From Corbicula japonica (lineage: Eukaryota > Mollusca > Bivalvia > Venerida > Cyrenidae): a stretch of 64,000 nt of DNA. A program made the position numbers and the translations under genes. Positions within the stretch are counted from its first letter, which is position 1; each line of letters begins with the position of its first letter. The notes beneath the pieces were generated by a model. The model saw only the letters and a program-made list of their open reading frames with translations. It searched no databases and was not told where the DNA came from. Positions 15,592-56,374 of this stretch are shown here, one piece after another. The stretch covers positions 2,976,001 to 3,040,000 of the forward strand of contig JAZAYU010000005.1 in NCBI GenBank assembly GCA_038501625.1, read 5' to 3'.

Positions 15592-15840
15592 CTATGAGTG
15601 TACATTTGAACTAATTCTCTTTTCAAATGATCCTTTGAATTCCATAGCTTGCATCCATATTGTTGTGTAACACATAAAATATACTAAAATCAGTGTTATA
15701 AACACCATTAAAATAGTTTTATTTTTACACATTCTAACTGGTGCTATTTTCTTCTTGGTAAAGGTCAAGGTCACTGCTATGGCAGCCAGAATTAAGAGAA
15801 TGGTGATCAAGGTCAACTGGCCCCCAGCATGCAGCACTGC
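15592..15840 (-). CDS. Hexosaminidase terminal exon 'K' encoding two hydrophobic segments
   Basis: This is an 83-codon exon including the TAG at 15592-15594. The acceptor is tattgtatttcag and the start phase is 0, which matches exon J. It reads [20 protein letters not shown] then [11 protein letters not shown] (first hydrophobic run of about 19 residues), a basic loop with KKK and RMCKNK, then [20 protein letters not shown] (second run) and a 19-residue tail. Soluble lysosomal hexosaminidases have no such tail. The link to exon J is inferred from phase, strand, splice sites and the lack of any other gene nearby. It could alternatively belong to a separate small membrane-protein gene. No clear AATAAA was found just downstream. 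Confidence 0.68.
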   Translation of the reverse strand, partial: AVLHAGGQLTLITILLILAAIAVTLTFTKKKIAPVRMCKNKTILMVFITLILVYFMCYTTIWMQAMEFKGSFEKRISSNVHS

Positions 15841-27800: not shown

Positions 27801-30800
27801 CTCTGGGCAACAGGCAGGCAGGTGGAAGCCAATTCAAGTGCAAGGGTATGTCGTGTTCAGAGTATTTGCCTGCTCAAACACCAGAGGCATCCTTGACCTT
27901 GAGCCAGCCAGGATGGAACATGGGTTCTGCACATCAGGTTCATGAACTGAACATTTCACTAAAGTTTCATGATATTCATTCCAGGGATTCAGAAGATATG
28001 AACTGGACACAAAATGCTTGGTTCAAATCTTCAAATACCACTGGTGACCTTGACATTGAGCCGGCCATGTTGGAACATGGGTTCTGCTTGTCATCTTAAT
28101 GGGGATAACATTTGACTAAAGTTTCATGAAATTCCTTGTAAGGGTTGAAAAGTTATGGACCGGACACAAAATATGCTCAAACACCACAGGCGGCCTTGAC
28201 CTTGAACCAGCCAGGTTGGAACATGGGTTCAGCACATCATGTTCATGAACTGAACATTTCACTTAAGTTTCATGATATTCATTCCAGGGGTTCAGAGACC
28301 TCCAATTAACTTGCCAGTTTGTGACATACACTGTATACAGCTGAGACCTCTCTTAAATTTAGTCTTAACATTTTGAGAATGTGCTACAAATTTGTTGTTG
28401 TTGTTGTTGCTGTTAAACATAGTATTTACAAACAGTAAATAAAATATTCAGAAAAACCTGATTTTCAAAGTGCTATAAAGTAAGAAAGTTTATTTGGGCA
28501 GTATCCATAGAAAATGACAAAATTTACCCTATAAAATCTTCCAGAGCAAAGTTCATAATATTGCATAACACAGATCTAAACAGCAAAGTTCATTAGGTCA
28601 TTGACCAGCAACTAGAGGAATACTGATAATTCATCCTAATATCATCTTAACATTGAATCTAATATAGCTGAAGACAGGAAGAAATATTGGAATTTTGATA
28701 CTTGAAATTTTCACTCTGCTACTAAAATTTTTGTTTCAAATTTTATCACTGGACAACCAGTGAATGAATTGTTCAGGAAAGATTGAATTTTAAAATGGTA
28801 TAAAGTTTGTGTCAAACTCTGGATGATAACTGTAGAAAATCAAAGGTGAAAAACAGAATTTAAAGGAAAATTTTTTTAAAATCCCCAGGGCGGGGCCCCT
28901 GGGCATTTCAAGAACATGATTTTAATAATTTTAATAAGTAGAGATCATCAATATCAATATTCATACCAAATTTCATGACAATAGGACAAAAAATGTGACC
29001 TCTATTGCATTAACAAAATTTTTGCTTTCATCTGGGTTCTGCACGTCGTCTTGATGGGGAGAACATTTGCCTAAAGTTTCATGAAATTCCTTCTAGGGGT
29101 TGAAAAGTTATTGACCGGACACGAAATGTGCGCGCACGGAAGGACAGACGGATGGACGCTCCTACAGATGGGCATTTGTTGGGTATTTCTTTTGTTTAAA
29201 ACTACCCAACAAACGAAAAACTACCCAATAAGAGACTAACGGAATGAATGGAAAGTTCTCACAGATGGGCATTTGTTTGGTATTTTGGTACCCAACGGAC
29301 GGACAGATGGACGGACGAAGACCATTCCTATATCCCCCAGCCGCTATGCAGCGGGGGATAATAATTTAATAACTTTTTATTTCTATACCTATGATATTCT
29401 GAAAACAGCAAAATAGAAAATGTGATTCTTCAAACTTGCACCTTTAAACCAGAAATTTATAAATGCTATGTGAAATAGCTATCCTGTTTTTGTATGTTTT
29501 TTAATTCAATAATACATAACTAATGTAACAGTTTTCTGTTAAAGACAACTCTTACAGTGGAATTATTACTAGCCAACTTTGAAATGTTGGGTCATGTCAA
29601 CTTCACAAGGTTTAAAACATTTCAACTAAAACAAGAACAAGCATTAACAAATAATAAACCTTAAACAAGAAATTTGTTTGAACCATTTTACCAGTGTTTT
29701 ATGATCAAACTTGATATATACCAGATCTCCAGCTATCACACAATTGCCTGCAAAATTTAGTAAAGAAGGGCTGGTAGAGTCTTTACTTGATCTAAATTGT
29801 CTGGATGGACAGAATTTCTGCTGCAGGTACAAATCTTTTACTTCATAGATACAACATATAGGTAATGATTGGTCTGCACATCCAATCGTGATGTGTGCTA
29901 TTTGCTACAAGTATCACTAGTTATTTCTGACGAGAGAAGCAAAGCAAGCAGACATGTTCTGATCTGGATGTACATTGCTCACATATGGGATAGGAATAAA
30001 GGGCACTAGGTCCTCTTCTAATGCAATACAATCTTCACTAATTGTCCTAACAAATAAGATAAATGTTTCTTAGAGAAATAAAAAAATTAACAAAAATCAA
30101 ATAGATCAAATATGAAATTTTGATTTAAACTGGAAAGTTTTAACATGCAGCAGTATATTGCATTAAGCTGAAAAATGTCACAAAATGTTGACTAGTGCTA
30201 TCACGCTAGACACAAGAAGCAATGTAAAACAAAACTGGGTTTTATTAGAAACATAGATATATACTGCTTAGACTGAGAATAACATATGGAATATATATCC
30301 AAGGTATTAAATAGATAGGCATGATATAACTAGAAGCTTGGCAGCAAAAAGCAGTGAGGCCTGTCATTACAAATCACAAACAACAACAAATATATAATAA
30401 ATGGCTGCAGAGGCATCCATGGTTTAACCCTACAAATAACTCTACCATATCAGGATACCTTCTTTACCATCCCATGGTTTAACCCTACAAATAACTCTAC
30501 AATATCAGAAGACCTTCTCTACCACCCAATGGTTTAACAGTACCATATCAGGATACCTTCTTTACCATCCCATGGTTTAACCCTACAAATAACTACCACA
30601 TTGGATACCCAGGACATATCCCTTAACCCAACAAGTAACCTTATTATCCAAAGACATAAACCTACAATCCCAGGACATATCCCTTAACCCAACAAGTAAC
30701 CTTATTATCCAAAGACATGAACCTACAATCCCAGGACATATCCCGTAACCCAACAAGTAACCTTATTATCCAAAGACATAAACCTACAATCCCAGGACAT

Positions 30801-33800
30801 ATACTGTAACCCTACATGTAACCTTATTATCCAGACATAAACCTACAATCCCAGGACATATCCCGTAACCCTACAAGTAACTTTATTATCCAGACATAAA
30901 CCTACAATCCCAGGACATATCCCTTAACCCTACAAGTAACCTTATTATCCAGACATAAACCTACAATCCCAGGACATATCCCGTAACCCTACAAATAACC
31001 TTATTATCCAGACATAAACCTTCAATCCCAGGACATATCCCGTAACCCTACAAGTAACTTTATTATCCAGACATAAACCTACAATCCCAGGACATAATAC
31101 CGTAACCCTACAAGTAACTTTATTATCCAGACATAAACCTACAATCCAAGGACATATTACCGTAACCCTACAAGTAACTTTATTATCCAGACATAAACCT
31201 ACAATCCCAGGACACCAACAAGTAACCTTATTATCGAGAAATAATCCTACAATCCCAGGACATATCCCATAACCCTACCAGACATATTCCATAGCATCCC
31301 AGGAAATAACTTCTTTATCACAGGACTAATTCCCTACCAAGGTAAAACTGTAGATGTATTACCCTACAAACAACCCTTACATCTCACATGCTAGGATATA
31401 GTCCAAAGATACAACCATACCATGCCAGGATAGATTCAGGAGATAAACCTAACATCTAACCATATATACCACCCTAGATACAACTTAACAATCTCAGGAT
31501 GTATCTTTCCAGCATCCTAGGATATATCATATCATTCAAGTTTATACATGTATCTATATAATCCTACTTTCTGGGGATATATAATGTATTCCCCTTTCAT
31601 CCTAGAGGACATATTCTGCTACCATTCCAGGATACACAAATACTCATACATACAGCATTATAAACTTCTTCTCAAAAGTACTGAATTCAAATTGTGCCTT
31701 ATAATATGTTTTACCAATTGTAGTATTTTAACTGCTTACAGCTAAAACCATTACATGACTGTGTTATGTGACTTTTTTGCAGTTATCAAGCTTTCACTCT
31801 ATATAAATATCCCATTTTTATTTTGAGTAAAAAGCAATTTCCTTGAAGGATGGAATGCAAGATTTCCAGAAAGGGGATTCATTTGGGGCAGTCATATGGT
31901 AGTTATGTGATAATTTCCAACTTTCTGGTCTAAATCCGCATTGCTATCCCAAAAGGGTTTTCAAGCAACTCCACTAAACCACCTCTGGATCTGCCCCTGC
32001 ACTGTAAGCTTAAATAAAAATCAGTCTTATATACAATTAAGATTTTTTTTCTTTCACAATAAAGCCACATCTCCAAAGCTACTTTTTCTTATATTTGCTG
32101 GTACAAATTCCATCCCAACATTAAAGCTGTACTTCTTGATTAAGCTGCATTCCATTGTTATTTTACCCAAAGTGTTTTTCACGGGGTCACATTCGTAGCC
32201 TTTGATCCAATCTACACCGTAACGGATTTGGTCATAATACCAACATGAGGAATATATGACATTATGCCCAAGAGATATTGCATTAACCACGTCCTCTAGG
32301 CCGGTTGCTTGCCAAACCTGAATAACTGAGTCTTTAGGTAACTGAAAGTATTTATTTATATGATTACAAAAATGCTAAAGGTAGATACAGAAGAAAAATG
32401 TGACCAGAGATTATCCTGCAATGCAGAATGTCATCTTCATCTCACCCCCACCACCCAACCTCTTCCTAATCCCAGGAGTATTATTTTATATTGTCACTGC
32501 CTTGCGATTAAATGTCTGGTACACAAACACACCAACAGTAAGCAAAACTATTCTGTTTTACATTTCTGTACAGTTGCAAGAAAAGTCTCCATTCTGTACA
32601 GTAAATAGAAGAATTGCTTCCCGTCTGTACAGTAAATAGAAGAATTGCCTCCTGTCTGTACAGTAAATAGAAGAATTGCTTCCCTTCTGTACAGTAAATA
32701 GAAGAATTGCTTCCCTTCTGTACAGTAAATAGAAGAATTGCTTCCCGTCTGTACAGTAAATAGAAGAATTGCTTCCTGTCTGTACAGTAAATAGAAGAAT
32801 TGCTTCCCTTCTGTACAGTAAATAGAAGAATTGCTTCCCTTCTGTACAGTAAATAAAAGAATTGCTTCCCGTCTGTACAGTAAATAGAAGAATAGTCTTC
32901 TTTCTGTCTGGTAAACCACTAAAAATAAAATTTACCATATGTAGCATCAGCTGGATCACACTGGTAATATTTTGACCATTTGGTACCATATTCAATGAGA
33001 TCAAGGTACCAGCATGTTGAATATATGACATTTAATCCTAGCGATATAGCCCTCTCCACTTCCTCCATTCCTCCTTGCCACACTTGGATAATTGTGTCAT
33101 TTGGTAGCTAGAAAATCAAGCAAGTTATATCAATCAGTTTAGTTTTGGTATGTACTCGCTAGCTATATTATACAAGTAAATACTGTGGGATCATTTCACT
33201 CCGCAAGGACAAATTTTTCGCATAAAAACCTAAAACTGATGTAATTCACAAGATAAAATTGATGCACAAATTAATATTTACAACTAGAAATGTGTCCATA
33301 GGACACGGATGCCCCCGCTATGCATCATTTTCAGATACTAAAGTGCAATGATGGGAATAATAGCATTTCAAAGACAGTGATGTTCGAGTAATTATAAGAA
33401 TATGCATAAACTTGATGATCAAGTAAATTATTTGTATTTGTGGCACTGTTGTCTTCTCATTATGGAAATGTCTGTGAAGAAGTTGGTGGTAATGCAATGC
33501 AATGTCATAGTGAACATTTGTGCCAAGTTATTTTGAAATCCCTTCCTTCATAAAGAAGTTATAGCCCGAACAAGTAAATTCAAGTTTTAGTAACTGTGAC
33601 CTTGACCTTGGACTTACAGGCATGGTTAATGTACGCAACACACCGCCTTGTCATGGTGAACATTTGTGCCAAGTTATTTTGAAAACCCTCCATTTAAAAC
33701 AGTTATAGCCCGGACAAGGAAATTCTATTTTTAGTAACAGTGACCTTGACCTTGGACCTACAGGCATGGACATGGTGCACGACTCACCACCTTGTCATGG

Positions 33801-56014: not shown

Positions 56015-56374
56015 ACTTCTTAGACTTTTAAACTGAGGTCCTCTACAGACTGTACATCTAACGATGTAATTTATCTTATTAACTGTAAAAAATGTAATAT
56101 GCAATATGTTGGTCAAACCAATCAGCAAGTATCGAAACGCATGAACAGTTATCGTTTTGATATTAATAATTTTAGCATAAATTCGTATTATTCGACCAAT
56201 GTTGCTACACATTATAATACGAATCAGCATTCGTTGGACGATTTTTCGTTCATTCCTATTGATGTGGTACGCGGAGAGATGAACAGACTATGCAAAGAAA
56301 CATACTGGATCCATAAACTTGGTACTTTGCATCCGATGGGAATGAACACGAAAATCGTCTACGATCTGAAATAA
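56015..56374 (+). pseudogene. Penelope-like element C-terminus, GIY-YIG endonuclease fragment
   Basis: The frame is open from about 56015 to the TAA at 56372-56374. It reads KLRSSTDCTSNDVIYLINCK then KCNMQYVGQTNQQVSKRMNS and later HSLDDFSFIPIDVV and KETYWIHKLGTLHPMGMN. The C-x2-C pair before QYVGQT (the YIG-type motif), the arginine/lysine-rich helix, the N-H-SLDDF segment and the E..WI.KL.T..P.G.N block are the standard order at the end of PLE proteins. PLEs use this nuclease with an upstream reverse transcriptase for target-primed insertion. The upstream frame has a stop near 56010 and no RT motifs, so this is a 5'-truncated copy, although the visible GIY-YIG part itself is uninterrupted. 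Confidence 0.88.

Follow-up and report, generated by a model that had tools for sequence, protein, structure and literature searches.

The window, a stretch of 64 000 nucleotides of Corbicula japonica DNA (C5:2976001-3040000), carries on its minus strand the exons of a predicted hexosaminidase gene, among which two adjacent exons (F and G) occupy what appears to be a single slot. The features of the gene are as follows.

Approximately C5:3064267-3064380, 3068396-3068515 and 3070222-3070551: three 5′ exon regions, outside the window on the same contig
46422-46321, minus strand: exon B
45327-45222, minus strand: exon C, GH20 barrel
43969-43762, minus strand: exon D, containing GGDEV
41580-41452, minus strand: exon between D and E, 129 nt, matching Mytilus HEXA_B
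37647-37557, minus strand: exon E, 91 nt, the upstream partner, ending at phase 0
33107-32936, minus strand: exon F, 172 nt, phase 0 to 1, with the beta-type pocket WYLDLIEYG
32342..32935, minus strand: F-G intron, 594 nt
32341-32167, minus strand: exon G, 175 nt, phase 0 to 1, a homologue of F, reading WYYDQIRYG
25816-25726, minus strand: exon H, 91 nt, the downstream partner, beginning at phase 1
24991-24887, minus strand: exon I
About 22459-22241, minus strand: exon J region, GH20 end and linker, matching Mytilus HEXA_B (edges approximate)
About 15813-15604, minus strand: C-terminal exon region with two hydrophobic stretches (edges approximate)

Both spliced products score as Glyco_hydro_20 (PF00728), at 249.8 and 245.4 bits against a cut-off of 22.3, and the gene encodes a GH20 beta-N-acetylhexosaminidase whose activity is predicted. 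We take the GGDEV of exon D to be the catalytic Asp-Glu pair; the catalytic roles of this pair and of the pocket Trp, Tyr and Asp in the present gene are presumed from general knowledge. Mytilus edulis HEXA_B is the nearest protein among the matches listed, at 76% over the whole query, against only 48% for the canonical Mytilus protein P0018. Other matches of the gene likewise have C-terminal hydrophobic stretches. The hydrophobic pair of the window gene (15604-15813, minus strand) aligns with its counterparts in the proteins of Mytilus and Candidula, which makes a membrane tether probable and points to a molluscan hexosaminidase type. Plain HEXA or HEXB do not appear as closest relatives among the matches listed, and a tree of the block encoded by the F/G slot sets the window type apart (99/82). 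The gene is accordingly classed with the membrane-tethered paralogues of molluscs, and not as the plain counterpart of HEXA or HEXB.

Exons F and G are adjacent and homologous, lying in one gene on one strand with equal phases and the common outer partners E and H. The coordinates, lengths and phases given for them in the original prediction are correct to the base. The encoded block comprises 57 or 58 residues of the catalytic barrel, of which 35/57 aligned residues (61%) are identical between the two (BLASTP E 4e-25, single comparison), and human HEXB structures are found with either exon by itself (best E 1.3e-10 with F and 2.1e-6 with G). Exon F has the acceptor ...gattttctag and donor gtaaat, exon G the acceptor ...tactttcag and donor gtaaaa, and the splice sites of E, F, G and H are all GT-AG. 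Translation and alignment confirm that both exons are free of stop codons and retain the pocket Trp, Tyr and Asp. Two tandem arrays lie nearby, one of a 31-bp unit (9.7 copies, 32593-32893) within the F-G intron and one of a 59-bp unit (11.4 copies, 30608-31278) within the G-H intron. Elsewhere in the window there is an open frame with a GIY-YIG domain (56024-56371, plus strand; PF01541, E 1.9e-5); such domains occur in Penelope-like elements.

One exon has been duplicated here, and not the whole gene, because the Mytilus ortholog matches the F/G slot twice and every other matched exon once, and F and G are the sole matches above noise within the window for a profile built on 225 slot sequences (next matches E 0.48 or worse). 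A cryptic second gene copy was rejected, the other Mytilus-matched exons being single.

The reading frame allows exactly one of the two exons, as had been proposed. The joins E+F+H+I and E+G+H+I are open, while inclusion of both exons (E+F+G+H+I) leads to a stop at residue 91 of the reconstructed stretch, and skipping of both (E+H+I) to a stop at residue 58. A steric block between F and G was rejected, as the 594-nt intron is too long, and minor-type splice sites were rejected as an exclusion device, all four exons being GT-AG. The region around the pair contains zero inverted repeats of 14 bases or more that could form hairpins.

How widely is the slot duplicated? We examined 211 public proteins, taken from the best 120 of 4525 and the best 120 of 7856 matches to the two spliced queries. 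In several bivalves annotated models differ only, or almost only, in the slot, with four alternatives in Mya, two in Pecten and two in oyster. The Mya arenaria HEXB-like isoforms X1-X4 have identical flanks (408/408 and 83/83) with 35-38/58 identities in the slot; Pecten X1/X2 are likewise identical outside it (403/403 and 86/86) and share 38/58 within it; and Crassostrea (Magallana) gigas X4/X2 have flanks of 385/389 and 88/89 with 27/58 in the slot. The slot of F and G is common to the Mya gene, which is a plain secreted/lysosomal-type paralogue lacking the C-terminal hydrophobic stretches and offers more alternatives. The original prediction knew of no such arrangement for HEXA/HEXB genes; that remark needs extending, as public HEX protein models of bivalves and teleosts show the arrangement, apparently without its having been pointed out.

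A second example is found in the same genome. Exon F has 13 matches in the assembly, namely F, G, three within 1.2 kb on contig C46 and eight at other loci; exon G has 11, among which there are zero new G-like blocks. The eight other loci (C338, C809 twice, C724 twice, C68, C264 and C550) each have one block within the fetched stretch by profile search. They are further hexosaminidases of the type of Sinanodonta P0007, at least some of them in tandem. The C46 gene is a paralogous hexosaminidase resembling Mytilus, Dreissena and Mercenaria hexosaminidase proteins. Its copies 1-3 lie at L010 1600-1771, 2393-2561 and 2607-2775 (span C46:385600-386775), with lengths of 172, 169 and 169 nt, all running from phase 0 to 1 and separated by introns of 621 nt (copies 1/2) and 45 nt (copies 2/3). 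Any one copy by itself reads in frame into the next exon, and the joint inclusions tried were out of frame. Published work sets a steric threshold of ~50 nt for the distance from 5′ splice site to branch point (PMC7969005); the 45-nt gap lies below it, and therefore probably forbids the joining of copies 2 and 3. Two contigs contain full-length spliced proteins and are therefore probably cDNA: one of 1,693 bases, from a close relative, encodes the paralogue with a copy-2-like block (P0123), and one of 1,850 bases has a copy-1-like block (P0126).

These paralogues bear on whether the choice between F and G is strict. The two exons could be alternative without being exclusive, double inclusion or skipping acting as an unproductive switch, linked to decay, that sets the amount of enzyme. 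Both faulty joins do lead to early stops, and the 594-nt intron holds nothing that would forbid splicing from F to G. Yet the annotated isoforms of the Mya and Pecten paralogues carry exactly one block each, and the short C46 gap would be expected to block the joining of copies 2 and 3. We consider such a switch unlikely, and prefer mutually exclusive use of F and G, which is consistent with the frame, with constraint on both proteins and with the one-block isoforms of Mya and Pecten.

The constraint is evident from pairwise comparison of F with G (NG86), giving pS of 0.77, which is saturated, with pN of 0.26 and dN of 0.32. When F was randomly mutated to the observed nucleotide divergence, 624/20000 sequences were stop-free and 0/20000 were equally alike in protein. 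As silent sites are saturated while protein change has been restrained, both exons appear to be under protein-level constraint and neither looks dead. This argues against G being a relic or a copy that was never used, with F alone present in working mRNA. It is F, and not G, that resembles the block of the membrane-type proteins of Mytilus, Lottia, Pomacea and Candidula (72% identity with that of the Mytilus edulis ortholog), and the window-gene orthologs found among the matches listed have an F-like block. The branch leading to G is also long (1.02 compared with 0.3 for F in a first block tree, and 1.1 compared with 0.26 in a second). No G-like block came to light in a transcript or protein; the protein search with the G block gave two candidates and no match, but was insensitive, missing the Mytilus ortholog too. 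Nevertheless G has remained stop-free with both splice sites intact, has kept 61% of its residues despite silent-site saturation, and at the near-invariant columns of the block still has Trp, Gly, Trp, Tyr, Trp, Tyr and Pro; a relic is accordingly an improbable reading. That the pair reflects misassembly, allelism or the border of a second copy of the gene is scarcely credible: tandem hexosaminidase loci are present in this genome, but saturation at silent sites means that F and G are not alleles, and within the window the other Mytilus-matched exons are single and the slot profile finds only these two.

Duplicated blocks extend beyond the molluscs. At least 14 of the 211 models examined have two blocks in one protein, comprising nine teleost HEXB-type models, Mya P0129, Holothuria P0152 and three apparent fusions of two GH20 units (two from Holotrichia and one from Coryphaenoides), in which the blocks are more than 300 residues apart. 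In all nine teleost models (P0028, P0027, P0037, P0041, P0080, P0113, P0158, P0161 and P0162) the first block is beta-type, reading D-Y or D-W at the two pocket positions, and the second is alpha-type, reading N-R. Gene predictors have probably joined mutually exclusive exons in these models. P0056 from Lates, which the filter used did not count among the 14, has a partial second block. Among teleost entries picked by eye for the annotation labels X2 or 2, D-Y or D-W is found in 26/27 and N-R in one; two teleost entries labelled X1 in the annotation read N-R, and the non-teleost Huso X1 reads D-Y. The sea cucumber protein P0152 (Holothuria leucospilota) has its two blocks 71 residues apart, reading N-Y and S-Q. 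The hexb gene is listed, without exon or type of event, among those differentially spliced in a reef fish during a heatwave (PMC8933327). Vertebrate Hex1 and Hex2 have been described as having 14 exons, in a study that worked with the longest isoforms (PMC2492878).

The two positions that differ between these blocks are of known functional importance. In the human enzymes N423-R424 of the alpha subunit, corresponding to D452-L453 of beta, sets the preference for negatively charged substrates, and the difference between alpha R424 and beta D452 has been tied to the handling of 6-sulfated and sialylated substrates (PMC3587417, PMC8162980). We compared the columns of the block in seven sets of alternatives (14 pairs) with background pairs of similar divergence. 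The difference exceeds the background most at the R424/L453 column (0.93 compared with 0.48 in the background), followed by the column two residues beyond it (0.67 compared with 0.32), while the Asp/Asn column shows little excess (0.69 compared with 0.56). Little weight can be put on the pair statistic (14/14, compared with 77% of the 3000 background pairs), since the pairs are not independent. We read the alternatives at this slot as a possible splicing-based tuning of the -1 subsite.

In the window gene the pocket pairs are D-L for F and D-Q for G, and those of C46 copies 1-3 are N-Y, D-Y and S-D. The charge-setting Asp is identical in F and G, so that the fish-type charge switch is absent from this pair. 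Exon G has Tyr before the Asp, at a column where 217/230 slots read Leu, Gln after it, and Arg two residues past the Gln. The two forms may differ in substrate or pH preference, although the effect of the changes in G is a guess.

The history of the block was examined with trees of 58-59 columns only, in which many forks are open, and the clades tested were chosen after the first tree. In that tree F and G group with the membrane-type blocks of Mytilus, Lottia, Pomacea and Candidula and are separated from blocks of the plain type, and the teleost D-type and N-R blocks form separate groups. F and G as a clade are neither shown nor rejected (p-AU 0.35), and G may have split before or after the Mytilus line; the grouping of F with Mytilus is weak (100/69 in the first tree and 68/55 in the second). 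Copy 1 of C46 groups with Mya X2 (98/86, second tree) and a single clade of the three copies is rejected (p-AU 0.0013), and the C46 cluster is thus judged from these trees to be older than the split from Mya. A single origin of the S-D type blocks (C46 copy 3, Mya X3 and oyster X4) is neither established nor clearly rejected (p-AU 0.077). The oyster pair forms a clade in the second tree (96/93) but not in the first, and may be an independent duplication.

Human hexosaminidase specificity is the textbook two-gene case, known through Tay-Sachs and Sandhoff diseases. Human HEXA and HEXB have the GH20 fold and the block in common with the window gene, but place their pocket types on two genes; the teleost HEXB models have both in one, and the window gene combines D-L with D-Q. 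The N-R positions of the teleost alpha-type block recur in the engineered human beta-alpha hybrid (D452N, L453R and loop changes; PMC3587417, PMC3243693), which was mutated for therapy studies, whereas the fish version is a predicted alternative exon. The best PDB match of the teleost alpha-type block is 5bro_A, a HEXB chain reading WYLNRISYG, suggesting that 5bro may be the engineered hybrid. Exons 4a/4b of OGDH are likewise an ancient duplicated exon in an enzyme gene that alters a ligand-responsive property (PMC7969005); there it is a Ca2+ motif with distant branch points, in contrast to the catalytic pocket block of a glycosidase with a 594-nt intron and no evident exclusion device. The homologous exon pairs of PKM and PFKP also differ at a ligand-binding residue (PMC9741552), in an allosteric site and not in the substrate pocket. 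HEXA and HEXB are absent from the main text of PMC9741552, which deals with human events. No paper describing the present pair was found in the searched literature, itself mostly without subscription papers. Mutually exclusive exons are a known kind of element; their repeated use at the hexosaminidase slot is apparently undescribed there.

Our analysis makes it probable that F and G are mutually exclusive, tandem-duplicated exons of a membrane-tethered GH20 gene that retune its pocket. They would have arisen by tandem duplication of one exon, and E would be spliced to one of the two, which in turn would be joined to H. One gene would thereby give two enzymes differing solely in the 57/58-residue block of the catalytic barrel, which holds the pocket Trp, Tyr and Asp together with neighbours that set the preference for neutral or negatively charged sugars in the human enzymes. 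In Corbicula japonica both exons would be spliced into mRNA under a regulated choice, and wrong splice products would be cleared by nonsense-mediated decay. We lean, with rather less assurance, towards a broader view, that the charge-determinant exon has been a recurrent target of duplication in bivalves, teleosts and a sea cucumber, such that splicing switches specificity, the teleost HEXB alternatives reproduce the human alpha/beta difference, and F/G is an independent instance.

If the teleost HEXB switch is true, the engineered beta-alpha hybrid has an equivalent in nature. If one gene toggles these residues by splicing, the rule relating sequence to specificity becomes testable with closely matched natural isoforms, and annotations that count one hexosaminidase per gene would undercount activities. 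The slot is a place to study why one exon duplicates repeatedly, and a single gene probably can yield enzymes that differ in substrate preference.
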